DNA of 64,000 nt from a virus, in the IMG/VR virus record IMGVR_UViG_3300022871_000011, positions 1-64,000 of that record, one strand, 5' to 3'. The translations under genes were made by a program, and so were the position numbers. Shown piece by piece: positions 15,194-58,557 of the stretch. Position 1 is the first letter of the stretch, and every line of letters begins with the position of its first letter. Under the pieces are notes generated by a model. The model searched no databases and was not told the origin of the DNA. It worked only from the letters and a program-made list of their open reading frames with translations.

Positions 15194-18100
15194 TTACCAA
15201 ACTACTTTCTCTGGATCAGTCGGGGCCGCTAAGGCCAGCTGCTGTTCCGTTATTGTAAACTTATCCTTGACAGTGTTCATGTCAGGGTACGATTGACGTG
15301 TGTGCCATATGGCCGAACACGCATAATTTAAAGCATGGGCAAAGTCATCACTCTTTTTGGGAGCTTTGCCTATAAGATACATAATACCGCCTCTGGGTAA
15401 TTCCCGGGGCATCTCTACAAGGTTAAGTAGATCATCCAGTACTATCTTGGATTCGTCATCATAGAACGGCAGTGAGATCTTATGTGCCCTTAACATAGCG
15501 CACATAACAGCCAAGCTCCGTGCTTTATCGATGCTGTAAGAGAACCGGGTACCGTTACCTGTAGGTGGGTTATAGGTTATAACATCTTTGTTGGTGCTGC
15601 TAACGTATGTGTAAGGTATGATCTGATGATCGGGCAAACCTGCCTGTCTCATCAAGGATTCCCTAACATAACCTGCGCCACCATAATCATGTGCCATATA
15701 GACACACTGAAACTTGCGGAACTGATCCATGATATACATGGACTCTTCTTCAGGGCTCATACCCATGGGGAGCCTCTCAGAGTATAAGTTATCTACTACA
15801 TCTGTACCGTTACGGAAACCCACGACGGCTAATGCAGTGTAGCTCTCTGATAAGTCTCCGCCACCACTCCAGTCAACACCCATAACATAACCGGAATACT
15901 GGTTGCGCAACTTAATTGTAGCAGCCATATCATTCTTATGTTTACCGGCCGCTGAGATTAAGTCGGCTTGTGATAATAGTTTAACGTTTTCATCGCAAGG
16001 CACCCCCAGTACCTCGTTATAGAATTTAGCCTTAGAGTAGGACCCGGGACCTTCCATTTTACCGAGTAGGGCCTGCCACTTAGCTTTAATCCCATAATGA
16101 AGAGGATGTGTTACCTGGCAGAAATGATAACCAGCATGCGTGGCAGCCAAGTCAGGCCGTGCATGTACATAGTAACCCCGGCGCCCATCTAAGGTGCCCC
16201 CGCATTTGGCACATATAATAGTTTTCTTACCCAGCATCTTAATCAGGTCCTGCTCAATCGATGCTATATTCTTTTTACGACAGTGACTACAAGGGATACA
16301 CCACTCCGCCATACTACTGTCGTTCCACACCACTGCAAGTGTTCCATCCGACGTCTTAGGCGTACCGGTATATTGCTGGAAACCGAAGTACCTATTTGCA
16401 CTTGTTGTTTCGAATAAAATTGGGAGGAAATCGTAGTCAATGTCTTGGCAATTAAGGCTTTGCACATTATTTGCAAGAATATAATTATGCGTTCCGACCA
16501 CCTCTATATCGTAAACAGGCTGCACAGCTGTAACCTCTATTTTAGATATTCTGCTAAGGGTTACGCCTGCTCCAGCTTCCTTGCACGGTAACGCCGCTGG
16601 TTGTCCCTCAACTTTAACTTCTGACACACCTCGGCCTGGCAGACGGTGCTTGTCTTCTTGTAGAGGGGTTCCCCGCAGTACCTGCAATGGCCTGTTGGCC
16701 CTTTCGCCAGTATTTTGCGCTTGTGCCGGGCATTCGTTATAAGGCGCTGTCTTTCTTTCTCTGCAGGGTCGTTGGCAAGCCTCTCTTTCCTGCGTTGGTC
16801 CGACCGGGCATTCTGTTCTTTTACTTTGTCGGGGTTGTTCTTGCGCCACTCTTTTGTGTGCACTGCCTCTGCTTTGTGGTCCCTGCGTGCGTTGGCCTTG
16901 TCCAGCCGATCTCTGTAGCGTCCCTGGTCCTTCTTTAATTTTGCATAATACCGTTTGCGCTCCGACTGTAGACTTGCTTCGTATGCCGGGTCTCCCTTTA
17001 GCGATGTCCGCTTGTCGCGTTTGCGTTCGTTTACAAGGTCCCTGTTGCGTTCCAGGTAGGCTGCTGCATGCTTTCTTCCCATTGCCCTGCTGTACACTAG
17101 GTCCTTGTAGTAACAGCGCCTGGCTATTATCCTGGATTGTTCCGGGTTGGCACGGCGCCACTCCGCGGACTTCTCCATTATGTATTCTTTGTTTTCTTCG
17201 TAATATTCGTGTTTGACTATGTGATCGTACTCCTCTTTGCATGCACCCTCGCATACCCATGCTCCCTTGGTTAGCTCTGCCCCGCACATTAAGCAACGGT
17301 GTTCTATACGGTTTATCTTGTAAGCCATCGGTGCAGGCATGTAAGGTGCTATCAACGGTATCAGGGTTATTGTGCCCTTCGCAGTTATGTATAGCAGAGG
17401 GTACGTGAAGACTTCCCCGTCCCTCGTTTTGTTCACCATATACACTTTGCTCTCCACACCATACTTGGCCATTAGCCATGTAGATAGCAGGTCCACTTCC
17501 TCCGGGCTGAACCCGTGAGTCGATATGCTCACAGTCCTGCGTCCGCTGTCCAGACATCCGTCGTCCCCTATCCACCACGCTATCCCCTCGGGGGTCAGCT
17601 GTGAGAGCCACTCCGTGTTCACTAGCTTGTGATGCCCGTCCGGGCATGTTAGGGTGAAGATATAGTGAAACACTGAGAGGGCCTGCGTCCTCCAGACACT
17701 CGACCATTCTCCGTAACCCCCGTTCTTGATCTTGTAAGGTGCTCTGGTGGCGTACTCTGCTAACAGGGCGTACTTCTCCAGGTTGTATTGGTGCTGGCAC
17801 CACCCGTGATTTGAGCGGTAACATACAGTCTGCTTGGCTGCGCTGCTTACCTGCATTGAGCCATCCCCTAGCATCGTACCCAGTAACAGCTGCTTCTGTG
17901 ATGCCGTCAAAGTCTCCGGTTTGTTTTGCATACTCATAATTTATTACCTCCGATAATCGTACAGGGCCTATAGATGTGGGGAATGAATGATCACCCGTAC
18001 ACTCTATTGTTTCACCTGTCTCTAGTGTAACTTTAAAACACAGCCGCTCCCCGTGATAGGAAGCATCCTTTGCTGCGATACTATTTAACACTGTACCATC

Positions 18101-18700
18101 ATTGTTGAAAGAATGCAAGTACTCACCTGCTTTAACTTCACAGACCTTTTTGGATGAAAAAGTCACTCCGTCATAACTCGTTGATATTAAAGTATTTGCG
18201 CTGAGGCTCTCGTCAATTGCGACACATGAGATTGAGGATATGCCCCTCACACGATCGGGATTTAGGTAGCAATATTCTAGGAATATCATAGACCCAGAAT
18301 GGAACTCTTTCGTGTAGAATTTACCCACCTCCTGGTCCGACATCATATCGCTCTTTATGAGAGAGTGTTTAAGAAGAGGCCTCAGGATGGTAGCATTATA
18401 GCGGGCCAACTGGTCAGCACGGGGCTCGATTATAAGTGTATGGAAGCCTTTGTAGTAGTGGGCCCTTAAAATAGCCTGTGCACTTAGGCTCAGACTTTTT
18501 CCTACTTGCCGTGAGCAGCAATATACAACAGATCTAGGTTGTTCAAATTCGAAGAATGGTGCCATCTGATAATGGAGGTCAGTTGACATATGTTCTTCAC
18601 CTATTTTGAACACAGGTAAGAGAGGTGCAAAGGATGTAACCCACCCCTCATCTACAGCGCGGAAGTATTCCGCAATGAATTGATTCGTATTAAGACCCAA
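15194..18700 (-). CDS. Terminase large subunit precursor containing an intein
   Basis: 1168 aa precursor, leftward. The ATPase part shows Walker A CCSRQVGKS (residues 61-69) and Walker B SCVAIDE (158-164). The nuclease part shows MGVDWSGGGDLSES, MAHDYGGAG and SDDFAHALNYA, the acidic metal-binding segments of TerL. Between Walker B and CQDIDYDFLPILFET sits a 586-residue intein (DNA 16451-18208). Removing it gives a 582-aa TerL with an uninterrupted VAIDE-CQDID motor motif, normal for the family. TerL packages DNA into the procapsid, cutting concatemers and driving translocation with ATP. The middle of the intein in this frame is low-complexity and overlaps a different gene. Confidence 0.9.
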   Translation of the reverse strand: MGLNTNQFIAEYFRAVDEGWVTSFAPLLPVFKIGEEHMSTDLHYQMAPFFEFEQPRSVVYCCSRQVGKSLSLSAQAILRAHYYKGFHTLIIEPRADQLARYNATILRPLLKHSLIKSDMMSDQEVGKFYTKEFHSGSMIFLEYCYLNPDRVRGISSISCVAIDESLSANTLISTSYDGVTFSSKKVCEVKAGEYLHSFNNDGTVLNSIAAKDASYHGERLCFKVTLETGETIECTGDHSFPTSIGPVRLSEVINYEYAKQTGDFDGITEAAVTGYDARGWLNAGKQRSQADCMLPLKSRVVPAPIQPGEVRPVSRVRHQSTLQDQERGLRRMVECLEDAGPLSVSLYLHPNMPGRASQASEHGVALTADPRGDSVVDRGRRMSGQRTQDCEHIDSRVQPGGSGPAIYMANGQVWCGEQSVYGEQNEGRGSLHVPSAIHNCEGHNNPDTVDSTLHACTDGLQDKPYRTPLLNVRGRANQGSMGMRGCMQRGVRSHSQTRILRRKQRIHNGEVRGVAPCQPGTIQDNSQALLLQGPSVQQGNGKKACSSLPGTQQGPCKRTQTRQADIAKGRPGIRSKSTVGAQTVLCKIKEGPGTLQRSAGQGQRTQGPQSRGSAHKRVAQEQPRQSKRTECPVGPTQEREACQRPCRERKTAPYNECPAQAQNTGERANRPLQVLRGTPLQEDKHRLPGRGVSEVKVEGQPAALPCKEAGAGVTLSRISKIEVTAVQPVYDIEVVGTHNYILANNVQSLNCQDIDYDFLPILFETTSANRYFGFQQYTGTPKTSDGTLAVVWNDSSMAEWCIPCSHCRKKNIASIEQDLIKMLGKKTIICAKCGGTLDGRRGYYVHARPDLAATHAGYHFCQVTHPLHYGIKAKWQALLGKMEGPGSYSKAKFYNEVLGVPCDENVKLLSQADLISAAGKHKNDMAATIKLRNQYSGYVMGVDWSGGGDLSESYTALAVVGFRNGTDVVDNLYSERLPMGMSPEEESMYIMDQFRKFQCVYMAHDYGGAGYVRESLMRQAGLPDHQIIPYTYVSSTNKDVITYNPPTGNGTRFSYSIDKARSLAVMCAMLRAHKISLPFYDDESKIVLDDLLNLVEMPRELPRGGIMYLIGKAPKKSDDFAHALNYACSAIWHTRQSYPDMNTVKDKFTITEQQLALAAPTDPEKVVW
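16451..18208 (-). mobile_element. Intein inserted in TerL Walker B
   Basis: 586 codons. It begins with Ser1 (SLSANTLIST, block A), has GETIECTGDHSFPT (block B, TxxH), and ends with VYDIEVVGTHNYILANN...SLN followed by Cys+1 of the C-extein (blocks F and G). The penultimate residue is Leu instead of the usual His, seen in a minority of active inteins. Splicing domains occupy roughly the first 95 and last 35-40 residues. The DNA between them carries a LAGLIDADG gene in the +1-shifted frame, while the intein frame stays open through it. Confidence 0.85.
16561..17937 (-). CDS. LAGLIDADG homing endonuclease nested out of frame in the TerL intein
   Basis: 458 aa, fully inside the intein DNA but in a different frame from TerL. 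It has its own GGAGG site, an in-frame TAA just upstream of the ATG, and its own stop, so it is a separate gene. LLLGTMLGDGSMQ (residue 17) and IAWWIGDDGCLD (about residue 118) are the two LAGLIDADG helices with the catalytic acidic residues. The C-terminal 240 residues have a Cys pair motif (CLMCG...CEGAC), repeated basic RRANPEQ/RKNNPDKV helices typical of DNA-binding tails of phage endonucleases, and a final CRYCGEP...CQAEVC zinc site. It should cut intein-less terL alleles and spread the intein. Confidence 0.85.
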   Translation of the reverse strand: MSMQNKPETLTASQKQLLLGTMLGDGSMQVSSAAKQTVCYRSNHGWCQHQYNLEKYALLAEYATRAPYKIKNGGYGEWSSVWRTQALSVFHYIFTLTCPDGHHKLVNTEWLSQLTPEGIAWWIGDDGCLDSGRRTVSISTHGFSPEEVDLLSTWLMAKYGVESKVYMVNKTRDGEVFTYPLLYITAKGTITLIPLIAPYMPAPMAYKINRIEHRCLMCGAELTKGAWVCEGACKEEYDHIVKHEYYEENKEYIMEKSAEWRRANPEQSRIIARRCYYKDLVYSRAMGRKHAAAYLERNRDLVNERKRDKRTSLKGDPAYEASLQSERKRYYAKLKKDQGRYRDRLDKANARRDHKAEAVHTKEWRKNNPDKVKEQNARSDQRRKERLANDPAEKERQRLITNARHKRKILAKGPTGHCRYCGEPLYKKTSTVCQAEVCQKLKLRDNQRRYRARKLEQA

Positions 18701-21839: not shown

Positions 21840-21988
21840 ACGTTGGTAGCTAATAGGGTTAAGCGCTCGCATTTCAAGCGAGGTCAGAATAGACCGTACA
21901 CCTGGTTAGGTTTATTCCCAAAATTAGGAACGGTATGCGCATACCGGTTCTATGGGTGATGGTAGTTCGAATCTATCCCAACGTGCCA
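21840..21988 (+). tRNA. Oversized tRNA-like RNA 1, anticodon TTC (Glu)
   Basis: Acceptor ACGTTGG (21840-21846) pairs with CCAACGT (21978-21984), followed by G and an encoded CCA. D-arm at 21849-21864 contains GGG. Anticodon arm CTCGC-ATTTCAA-GCGAG (21866-21882) reads UUC. T-arm GGTAG-TTCGAAT-CTATC (21961-21977) is canonical. Between anticodon arm and T-arm there are 78 bases instead of 4-5 (or about 20 in class II tRNAs); they include the perfect hairpin GGTATGC/GCATACC (21932-21945) and a GGTC/GACC hairpin. A canonical tRNA cloverleaf with a large variable-region insertion is the best description; whether the insert is removed is unknown. Confidence 0.65.
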
Positions 21989-21998
21989 TTTTATTTAA

Positions 21999-22194
21999 GG
22001 TCCTGTAGCTGATATTGGGTTAGCGGCTGGGTGTTGCCTTTGTCATAAGGCACCAGTGTCAGATCGGCAAGAAACATAGCCAACCGGTTGGTTATACGAA
22101 AAGCCTATCGGCCAAAATTTATGCAGGAAGCGCAGGAACAGTGCGGAATGTGTAATGGGCGTATAAGGAGGTTCGATTCCTTCTGGGATCACCA
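21999..22194 (+). tRNA. Oversized tRNA-like RNA 2, anticodon unresolved
   Basis: Acceptor GGTCCTG (21999-22005) pairs with TGGGATC (22184-22190, with G-U pairs), then A and CCA. D-arm 22008-22024 contains TTGGG. T-arm GGAGG-TTCGATT-CCTTC (22167-22183) is canonical. GCTGG (22026-22030) pairs with CCAGT (22053-22057) as an anticodon stem, but the loop is 22 bases and holds an inner TGCCTT/AAGGCA hairpin with TGTCAT at its tip, which would read GTC (Asp) if used. A further 109 bases, including ATAGCCAACC/GGTTGGTTAT (22076-22095), separate this arm from the T-arm. Total 196 bases, over twice normal. Confidence 0.55.
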
Positions 22195-22200
22195 GTTTTT

Positions 22201-22455
22201 GAGTAGAGCGGGTGACATCCGCGAGTCGTGGTTACTACAGCCCCCTACATCCCGATTGAGCGGCCCAAAAAAATATCGGAAGACGGCCGAGGCGCTCAGG
22301 GGTGATAAATAAAGGAAGAAGGTGGAGGGATCTATGGCCTATGTAACGGGTTTAATAGCGTTTGCATAGATCGTCATGAAGCCAAGGCCTATGGAGGGGT
22401 TACAAACCTCCGGCCGCTGCCGTAGTTCGAGAAGCCACTTTAACCCGCTCTGCTC
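22201..22455 (+). ncRNA. Structured RNA 3, closed by a 9-bp terminal helix
   Basis: AGAGCGGGT (22205-22213) pairs with ACCCGCTCT (22443-22451), flanked by GAG/CTC across one mismatch. Internal perfect helices: GTGGTT/AGCCAC (22228, 22433), TGAGCG/CGCTCA (22257, 22293), GATCTATG/CATAGATC (22329, 22365) and GGCC-x3-GGAGG/CCTCC-GGCC (22386-22415). The outer helix plus a small GAC/GTC arm mimic an acceptor and D-arm, but no T-arm pairs and the 3' end reads GCTC rather than CCA. It is not a recognisable RNase P, tmRNA or group I intron. Family unknown. Confidence 0.55.
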
Positions 22456-22475
22456 ATTTTTAACAAAGGAGATAC

Positions 22476-36139: not shown

Positions 36140-36392
36140 TTTCCAGGTGGTATGGGCGTAAATAGATTCTTAAATGAATCATGGAAGAACGGGATGTATG
36201 ATATGACATACGAGGAAGCACAGGAGCTACGCTCTGCGTGGTTTGATGCCTTCCCCGAAATGGAATTTCATATGAATCCATCGACGTGCTCGGCACCTAA
36301 TGGAGGGGCTGACACAAACATTTATGTGGGACATTCCTTAGCAGGAACATCACGTAAGTATTGCTCGTATAATAGTGCGTGCAATTATCCGT
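36140..36392 (+). CDS. polA: Family A DNA polymerase, exon 2
   Basis: 84 codons plus one base lying between two introns. Encodes FPGGMGVNRFLNESW and continues through PNGGADTNIYVGHSLAGTSRK to SACNYP. It carries the second half of motif B and the fingers-to-palm linker. It joins to exon 3 through the split Phe codon of NYPFQSLAATGAK. Confidence 0.85.
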
Positions 36393-37344
36393 TAAATTGT
36401 AGCGGATAAAAAATGAGGTGAATTCATGGGAAGCCAACTTGACAAATTAGCTTGTAACACGTATTGTAGTTACAAGCTGAAGGTGATCATGAGCCAAGCT
36501 GCACAGGGATGTGTGGAAGGTGCAACGACTAGTCTGTACAATCTAGACCAGATGATGGGAGACCACGAGCGCCTCACCCGGGTAAAGTATACCCGGTGAT
36601 GATATAGTCTGAACTATTACAAATGTCAAGGAGTTAATTAGCATGAAATGTCAGAAAAGGAACGAGAAGTAAGTCGCGAACGAGGTAGAAAGTATAGAGA
36701 AAACATGTCTGAAGAGCAGAGGACACGTAAAAGCGATCGCGACAAACAAAACCGAAGAGCTGCTAAGAAGGAAAGACTTACACTGAACAAGACTTTGTTT
36801 AAGAAGGGTAAGAGAATCTGTAGCAGATGTTATGACAAGAAAGTACTCTCGGCATACTCGACCAAAGGGAACAGCCCCTCCAATTATAATAAGATATGTG
36901 ATAGTTGTTTAATAAAGCTCTATCAAACTATCTCTTATTCTCCGGAGGTCTTGACCCCTAAATTCTGGCGTAAAAAAGCATATAGCTGTAATGGAGGGTT
37001 TATATCCCGTCAAAAGCGACGGGGAATCGACACAGCTATACAGACATTAGGCACCCAAAAGATAACAGGAGAAGAACTCCTAAAATTATTTGAGTGCCAG
37101 AATAGGCTTTGCTTATACTGCCATACAGATTTATCTGACGGGCAGTTTCAACTAGACCATAGAACTCCGATTAACGGAGGAGGAAAACATGGTATAGAAA
37201 ATATAGACATAGTTTGTGCTGACTGTAATATGCTTAAATTTGATAAAGACCCTGAGTATTTCAAGGGCTTCATCGGATCATATGCTAAACGTATACTCCA
37301 AGTAATAGAATTACAGGATAAAGAGCCTGTAAGATAACACAATG
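36393..37344 (+). mobile_element. Group I intron B in polA
   Basis: 952 bases. Exon end AUCCGU pairs perfectly with GCGGAU (P1, terminal U-G). GGTGCAACGACTAG and GATGATATAGTC (36598-36609) look like the P3/P7 core. Nearly all of the core precedes the HNH gene, which runs to within seven bases of the 3' splice site. The intron ends with G at 37344. Joining gives NYPFQSLAATGAK, the expected polymerase sequence. Confidence 0.85.
36648..37337 (+). CDS. Intron-encoded HNH homing endonuclease 3
   Basis: 229 aa. Highly basic N-terminus (SRERGRKYRENMSEEQRTRK, repeated RR/KK), a Cys pair unit (CSRCYDKK...CDSC), then the HNH core CLYCHTDLSDGQFQLDHRTP ... NIDIVCADCNMLK near residues 161-205. AAGGAG lies 14 bases before this ATG and fits an out-of-frame ATG at 36643 better, so initiation may be inefficient or by re-initiation. 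Located in the 3' peripheral loop of the intron. Confidence 0.8.
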   Translation: MSEKEREVSRERGRKYRENMSEEQRTRKSDRDKQNRRAAKKERLTLNKTLFKKGKRICSRCYDKKVLSAYSTKGNSPSNYNKICDSCLIKLYQTISYSPEVLTPKFWRKKAYSCNGGFISRQKRRGIDTAIQTLGTQKITGEELLKLFECQNRLCLYCHTDLSDGQFQLDHRTPINGGGKHGIENIDIVCADCNMLKFDKDPEYFKGFIGSYAKRILQVIELQDKEPVR

Positions 37345-57158: not shown

Positions 57159-57192
57159 ACACCTCCAACCACTAACTATGAAAGGATATATT

Positions 57193-58557
57193 ATGAACGA
57201 TCTAGTATTAAAGCTCGTCGAACAAGCCGAGCTCAAACATTGGCAAGTCCTACTCGTAGGAGGCGCCGTAAGGGATCAGTTCTTTGAAAAAGCTGAAGAA
57301 GTAAAGGACTATGATCTAGAATTCTACGGCCCAACAGCTGAAGAGCTAGAAGAGTTCCTAAGTAAAATAGGAAACGTCAAAGCAGTTGGCAAAAGCTTTG
57401 GTGTTTATAAGTTAACAGTAGATGATATTGATCTTGATGTGTCCTTACCTAGAAGGGAGAACAAAGTAGGTGTAGGGCACAAGGGTTTTGTAATTGAAGC
57501 GGACGGGAGCATGACTCCTGAGGAAGCCGCTACTCGAAGAGACTTCACTATGAATGCCATCGCAATGAACGTGCGAAGTGGTGAGGTCCTGGATTACTTT
57601 AAAGGCTTGAATGACATCAAGGACAGGATACTTAAGCACACATCGGATCGGTTCATTGAGGACCCACTGAGAGTGCTACGTGGTTTCCAGTTCTGTGGTC
57701 GTTTTGGTCTGTCCGCGGATAAGTCAACGTTAGAGCTGTGCGAACAGCTACTCCCACAATACACCGAGCTACCAAAGGAACGTGTATGGATGGAGTGGGA
57801 GAAATGGGCCGATAGATCTACCAAGCCCTCTTTTGGGTTAAAGTTCCTTAAGAAGACAGGTTGGCTAGAGCTCTACCCTGAGCTATATGACCTGGTAGGA
57901 CTGGAACAAGACGCGTTGTGGCATCCTGAAGGGGATGTATTTACACATTCGTGTCAATCCTGCGATGCTATGGTTAAGCTATGTGATGAGGGTGGTAAGA
58001 AGGGTAGGGACCGTCAGGTTCTTATGTTTGCCATACTCTGTCATGACTTAGGCAAGGTTGTAACGTCAGAGATCAATGATCAAGGCCGTATAATTTCCAG
58101 AGGCCACCCTGAAGCGGGTGAGGAGTACACCAGGCTATTTCTTAATAGTATAGGTGCACCCCAGGAAGTTATCGAGAGGGTTATACCTCTGGTCGTTAAT
58201 CATATGATGCACTTATCAGAACACTCGACCAAGTCGGTCAGGCGTTTGTCCATTAGATTAGGGAAAGCCAATATCGATGAGCTTGCTTATGTGATAACGG
58301 CGGACTCACGTGGACGTGGAAGTTTATCAAAGAATGAAGTACCCGGATTAGCTGAACTGATTAGACTGGCCAAAGAGGTAAAGGTTCAGACCTTTGCCCC
58401 TAAGCCTATCTTAAAGGGTAGACACCTTATGGACCTCGGTCAAGCGGCCGGACCTGATATGGGTAAACACCTTGAGAGAGCCTACCAAGCACAGCTAGAT
58501 GGATTCTTCTCCACAGAGACCACAGCAATACAGTGGTTTGTGGATCACACAAAATAA
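57193..58557 (+). CDS. CCA-adding enzyme / poly(A) polymerase family with HD domain
   Basis: 454 aa from the ATG at 57193 (AAAGGA upstream). LLVGGAVRDQFF near residue 18 and KDYDLEFYG (DxD, near 38) form the class II nucleotidyltransferase head; TRRDFTMNAIAMNV near 118 and EDPLRVLRGFQFCGRFGL near 155 are the conserved body motifs; LCHDLGKVVTSE near 285 and HPEAGEEYTRLFL begin the HD domain of bacterial-type enzymes. It adds or repairs the 3' CCA of tRNAs. Its position immediately after a CCA-ended RNA suggests a functional link to the phage tRNA-like RNAs. Confidence 0.9.
   Translation: MNDLVLKLVEQAELKHWQVLLVGGAVRDQFFEKAEEVKDYDLEFYGPTAEELEEFLSKIGNVKAVGKSFGVYKLTVDDIDLDVSLPRRENKVGVGHKGFVIEADGSMTPEEAATRRDFTMNAIAMNVRSGEVLDYFKGLNDIKDRILKHTSDRFIEDPLRVLRGFQFCGRFGLSADKSTLELCEQLLPQYTELPKERVWMEWEKWADRSTKPSFGLKFLKKTGWLELYPELYDLVGLEQDALWHPEGDVFTHSCQSCDAMVKLCDEGGKKGRDRQVLMFAILCHDLGKVVTSEINDQGRIISRGHPEAGEEYTRLFLNSIGAPQEVIERVIPLVVNHMMHLSEHSTKSVRRLSIRLGKANIDELAYVITADSRGRGSLSKNEVPGLAELIRLAKEVKVQTFAPKPILKGRHLMDLGQAAGPDMGKHLERAYQAQLDGFFSTETTAIQWFVDHTK

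Follow-up and report, generated by a model that had tools for sequence, protein, structure and literature searches.

A phage tRNA-like RNA with a 78-nucleotide insert in its variable region

The variable region of known tRNAs comprises 4–5 nt, or at least 10 nt in class II (PMC7609411), and engineered tRNAs that carry the Spinach aptamer in the V-loop show only marginal tRNA activity (PMC7590224). Archaeal tRNAs may carry introns at non-canonical sites, for which the archaeal splicing endonuclease is needed (PMC4033280). Bacteriophage T4 produces RNAC, an expressed RNA of unknown function whose gene is located beside tRNA genes (PMC9697503), and YrlA RNA has been proposed to act as a competitive inhibitor of an anticodon nuclease (PMC7790460).

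The window analysed here, 64,000 bases long, is the first part of a 77,273-base IMG/VR virus record. Its source is a tailed phage that encodes a terminase, a DNA polymerase, a primase, a DnaB-like helicase, SbcCD, a ClpP-like head protease and a CCA-adding enzyme, and for which a comparison with phage records found no closely similar annotated record. The features of the window, including an intein with its own endonuclease ORF in the terminase gene and a group I intron followed by an endonuclease-like ORF, are listed in Table 1.

Table 1. Positions of RNA genes and other features in the window
Feature	Position	Strand	Score or remark
Terminase large subunit gene	15194–18700	−	
Intein in terminase gene	about 16450–18208		absent from the closest relative, L277
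LAGLIDADG_2 endonuclease ORF, 458 aa	16561–17937	−	within intein, other frame, same strand
RNA1, tRNA-like, anticodon UUC, encoded CCA	21840–21988	+	RF00005 41.0 bits; scanner 50.1
RNA1 acceptor stem, 5′ strand	21840–21846	+	ACGTTGG; 7 Watson-Crick pairs with 21978–21984
RNA1 D-arm	21849–21864	+	GCTAATAGGGTTAAGC (as RNA GCUAAUAGGGUUAAGC)
RNA1 anticodon arm	21866–21882	+	CTCGC-ATTTCAA-GCGAG; 5 Watson-Crick pairs; loop AUUUCAA
RNA1 variable region (insert)	21883–21960	+	78 nt
Insert hairpin 1	21887–21917	+	predicted fold
Insert hairpin 2	21918–21955	+	predicted fold; perfect palindrome CGGTATGCGCATACCG at 21931–21946
RNA1 T-arm	21961–21977	+	GGTAG-TTCGAAT-CTATC; loop UUCGAAU
RNA1 acceptor 3′ strand, discriminator, CCA	21978–21988	+	CCAACGT; G73 (21985); CCA (21986–21988)
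RNA2, tRNA-ended, 196 nt	21999–22194	+	scanner 34.6
RNA2 hairpin	22035–22052		GUC in loop
RNA2 T-arm	22167–22183		
RNA3, structured, 257 nt	22200–22456	+	14-bp closing helix, then TTTTT; no CCA; z −3.2
Group I intron	36359–36631	+	63.6 bits
HNH/endonuclease VII-like ORF	36648–37337		downstream of group I intron
tRNA nucleotidyltransferase (CCA-adding enzyme)	57178–58557	+	phrog_2244, E 7.8e-70

A complete cloverleaf around an insert

RNA1 folds into a full cloverleaf with a 7-bp acceptor stem, 5-bp anticodon and T stems and 7-nt loops, and contains U8, A14, GG, U33, TTCRA and the 3′-terminal CCA; UA separates the acceptor stem from the D-arm and G separates the D-arm from the anticodon arm. 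The pairs of all four stems are intact (20/20), the D-stem consisting of three pairs and an A·A apposition, and position 15 is U rather than a purine, so that an earlier sequence-only reading of the locus was right that every arm is present and slightly generous in calling them canonical. The tRNA covariance model RF00005 (cut-off 29 bits), a check which that reading had proposed, scores 41.0 bits in an alignment that spans the insert (E 2.1e-6 for a searched region of 4.4 kb). A custom scanner gave 50.1, compared with about 35–53 for ordinary tRNAs of related phages and T4 and a maximum of 32.0 in 600 dinucleotide shuffles of the window. The match is thus beyond chance, and both the ends and the 78-base length given earlier for the insertion are exact.

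Default ARAGORN and a whole-window cmscan both missed RNA1 because of the insert. ARAGORN with introns allowed, a check likewise proposed earlier, returned a tRNA-SeC with a 57-nt intron in the anticodon loop, which was rejected because it would break the perfect CTCGC/GCGAG stem. RNA1 freed of its insert was called as an ordinary tRNA-Glu(ttc). The anticodon is one of the two (UUC/CUC) expected of tRNA-Glu, but the D-arm is not of the Glu type, since related phage tRNA-Glu genes have GACGAATTGGTAGAGTC, TCTAGTTGGGCGGGA and similar sequences; the earlier name tRNA-Glu would therefore describe the anticodon and no other part of the molecule.

In the predicted fold, the insert forms two hairpins and leaves the tRNA arms undisturbed, with modest z-scores (−2.1 for the insert and −2.7 for the whole of RNA1). 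The sequence-only reading had given it a single perfect hairpin. No second copy of the insert is present in the window or in any fetched locus, and its interpretation as a mobile repeat was rejected on this ground. An Rfam search matched no intron family to the insert, the group I intron being the only intron match in the window. The length of the variable region exceeds the tRNA range of about 4–24 nt, and the data support RNA1 as a genuine gene of tRNA-like type whose variable-region insert is without precedent, although a chimeric assembly is possible. To our knowledge, no bacterial tRNA is interrupted at the corresponding position.

Neighbouring RNAs and related phages

RNA1 begins 6 nt past the stop codon of the upstream gene and is separated by 10 nt from RNA2, and the spacing of RNA1 to RNA3 is that of a processed RNA array. 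RNA2, whose scanner score lies above those of all 600 shuffles, combines a 7-bp acceptor stem (GGTCCTG/TGGGATC, three of the pairs being G–U) with a D-arm and a T-arm and ends in A73 and CCA. The anticodon arm, about 110 nt away from the T-arm, is irregular, and the strand of RNA2 gave neither a tRNA match nor any other plausible Rfam match. No convincing separate promoter was found for the cluster. The adjoining genes match no known defence or anti-defence family, and a link of RNA1 to such a gene next door was rejected.

Searches with the SbcC, ATPase, DNA polymerase and CCA-adding enzyme sequences as queries for close relatives yielded no useful kin; relatives were obtained with a terminase profile, with a helicase profile and in one metagenome-assembled genome contig, L277, which is the closest relative (terminase 54% identical). 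L277 is collinear with the window on both flanks yet lacks the 19.0–23.1 kb stretch that holds the RNA cluster, indicating that this stretch of about 4 kb is accessory. Other relatives carry ordinary tRNA arrays in the terminase region (L114, L117, L118, L123 and L130), and three of these also have tRNA-ended RNAs of 120–185 nt with an odd middle (L114:1081–1203, L117:16929–16753 and L123:17200–17016). Sequence from relatives totalling about 2.4 Mb yielded no further intact cloverleaf whose variable region bears a long insert; no homologue of RNA1 or RNA2 was detected in viral contigs with blastn, nhmmer or IUPAC patterns, and the RNA1–RNA3 region has no sequence match to any phage record, including T4. 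Two further scanner matches were set aside, one (L204:16475–16161) as two ordinary tRNA genes of a dense array pairing together and the other (L212:9132–9350) as a gene end joined to the tRNA domain of a Y RNA. RNA1 and the tRNA-ended RNAs, both those next to it and those of related phages, escape standard tRNA finders, so that a class of RNAs with borrowed tRNA ends may have gone uncounted in phage genomes.

tmRNA is a bacterial RNA, and its presence in L114, in the terminase region, and in L209, elsewhere in its record, makes it probable that the hosts of the relatives are bacteria. Several further features were noted. A tRNA-Tyr-like RNA (L114:1531–1627, plus strand) has an acceptor stem, a T-arm, CCA, an anticodon arm with GUA and a variable region of ~28 nt, and lacks a D-arm. 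The sole ARAGORN tRNA in each of two stretches from two related phages (L200:5315–5388 and L216:10106–10180) has the anticodon CUA and is called tRNA-Pyl; these are possible amber suppressors. An RtcB RNA ligase is encoded by three related phages with tRNA arrays (L225 of G055, L226 of G058, and record G057). A long non-coding stretch (L102:5300–9000, minus strand) contains a small hairpin of the type AGCTGTAATCGGCT, which recurs in six or more copies separated by larger hairpins, and has no Rfam match of note, and a near-perfect inverted repeat with arms of about 75–85 nt (L101:8540–8790) lies immediately upstream of an SbcD gene.

A recurring stem is found in four relatives (G044, G053, G073 and G074), and in three of them it has copies enclosing a circularly permuted tRNA. 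The idea that these permuted tRNA genes represent a new splicing system was rejected, since each is the tRNA domain of a YrlA-like Y RNA, a kind of RNA already known. Rfam names the stem and tRNA of G073 as YrlA, the best match (48.4 bits) being below the cut-off of 69. YrlA-like Y RNAs form multi-copy arrays at L204:16566–17610 (−), L212:9288–10713 (+), L199:137–571 (−) and L134:20590–20656 (−), some with the permuted tRNA domain and others with only a short loop. A stretch matching the TROVE (Ro) domain is present in G044, G053 and G073, and in G051 such a stretch lies about 2 kb from a single YrlA match; a phage Ro–Y RNA system is thus possible in these relatives.

Readings of RNA1

The reading that we tentatively prefer, while giving it somewhat less than an even chance, takes RNA1 for a stable phage RNA of tRNA origin whose tRNA ends serve its processing and which keeps the insert. 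We infer its transcription, processing and insert retention, as well as any function, as follows. RNA1 would be transcribed together with the upstream gene, RNA2 and RNA3 and trimmed like a tRNA, with RNase P cutting at A1; the encoded CCA would form the 3′-end and could be kept intact by the CCA-adding enzyme of the phage. The insert would be retained as an extra two-hairpin domain projecting from the variable region; the tRNA part would confer stability and access to tRNA-binding proteins, and the insert a putative second binding function. This is consistent with the complete cloverleaf and its tRNA-like scores, the independent predicted folding of insert and arms, the array-like spacing, and the possession of a CCA-adding enzyme by the phage. 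RNA2 and the odd RNAs of L114, L117 and L123 also keep tRNA ends while the middle varies, and T4 RNAC, beside tRNA genes, likewise ends in a T-arm. Against it stand the absence of RNA1 from every relative found and of the whole cluster from the closest one, the modest fold z-scores, and the integrity of all 20 stem pairs, those of the anticodon arm included, an arm for which a pure scaffold would have no use. If full-length RNA1 is made and kept, it would show how much a variable region can grow in nature, and would bear on engineered tRNAs and on the use by phages of tRNA-shaped RNAs against or beside the host.

The reading that ranks next, which we regard as rather unlikely, makes RNA1 a functional decoding tRNA (UUC), able to cope with a very large variable arm, by which the phage supplies or replaces a host tRNA. 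All arms, U33, A37, the T-loop, G73 and CCA are intact, ARAGORN accepts the insert-less body, GAA is common in this phage (36 per 1000 codons), and tRNAs of phage origin can save phages when a defence cuts tRNA (PMC11555353). However, GAG is nearly as common as GAA, the D-arm departs from those of tRNA-Glu genes in related phages, position 15 is U, and Spinach in the V-loop left marginal activity (PMC7590224).

The missing cluster in L277 and the failure of any relative found to share RNA1 or RNA2 would also suit a tRNA gene into which DNA was recently inserted and which now drifts as a pseudogene or evolutionary intermediate; RNA2, with no clean anticodon arm, would be a further decayed case. 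This is only a little less likely than a decoding tRNA. Against it, the acceptor, anticodon and T stems of RNA1 are free of mismatches, neither the window nor the fetched loci contain the insert as a repeat, and RNA2 keeps its acceptor, T-arm and CCA despite an altered middle. More doubtful still is the broader proposal that selection has maintained the insert as a second functional domain while the same phage RNA is charged, or bound, in the manner of a tRNA. RNA1 would then be a natural tRNA chassis with a two-hairpin cargo, or else the insert would represent a type of removable insertion new to the tRNAs of bacteria or their phages.

The sequence-only reading had offered an intron, a fused regulatory RNA and a decoy as candidate functions. 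As a decoy, RNA1 would occupy a host tRNA-cutting defence nuclease or tRNA enzyme. There is little to commend this: precedents exist in tRNA-targeting defences and in tRNA-based countermeasures of phages (PMC10264068, PMC11555353), and competitive inhibition of an anticodon nuclease has been proposed for YrlA (PMC7790460), but the genes next to RNA1 gave no match to known families of defence or anti-defence. Least likely of all is that the insert, placed at an unusual site (about 44/48), is an intron whose removal would give a normal 76-nt tRNA. In favour are the regular tRNA that results when the insert is taken out, the group I intron hosted by the phage and the RtcB of three relatives. However, 78 nt is below group I/II size and fits no known intron class, no intron family matches the insert, and this possibly incomplete record has no RtcB. 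Non-canonical tRNA introns are archaeal and need the archaeal splicing endonuclease, and the probably bacterial hosts would lack bulge-helix-bulge splicing.

Comparison with known systems

With ordinary tRNAs of class I and II (RF00005), RNA1 shares the acceptor, D-, anticodon and T-arms, the conserved bases, G73 and CCA, and differs in its variable region, whose 78 nt are predicted to form two hairpins, compared with 4–5 nt in class I and at least 10 nt in class II; this is in keeping with the earlier statement that no known tRNA class has such an arrangement. Archaeal tRNAs with non-canonical introns resemble it in being interrupted outside the anticodon loop, but depend on the archaeal splicing endonuclease, whereas the tmRNAs of the relatives point to bacterial hosts. 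YrlA (RF02553), which forms arrays in relatives of this phage, is similarly a tRNA mimic fused to another RNA domain; its tRNA part, however, is circularly permuted and the extra domain exits at the anticodon side. RNA1 is not permuted and this record has neither a YrlA match nor a TROVE protein, and YrlA therefore does not explain RNA1. T4 RNAC (species 1 RNA) is a late-expressed, 139-nt member of a phage tRNA cluster with a perfect T-arm near its 3′-end, and RNA1 has the same kind of layout, being a member of a tRNA-type array, 100–200 nt long, with a tRNA-like 3′-end. RNAC has no recognisable D-arm or anticodon arm and a weak acceptor stem, in contrast to the full cloverleaf and CCA of RNA1; the likeness is one of layout rather than sequence, and RNAC is the best precedent for RNA1.
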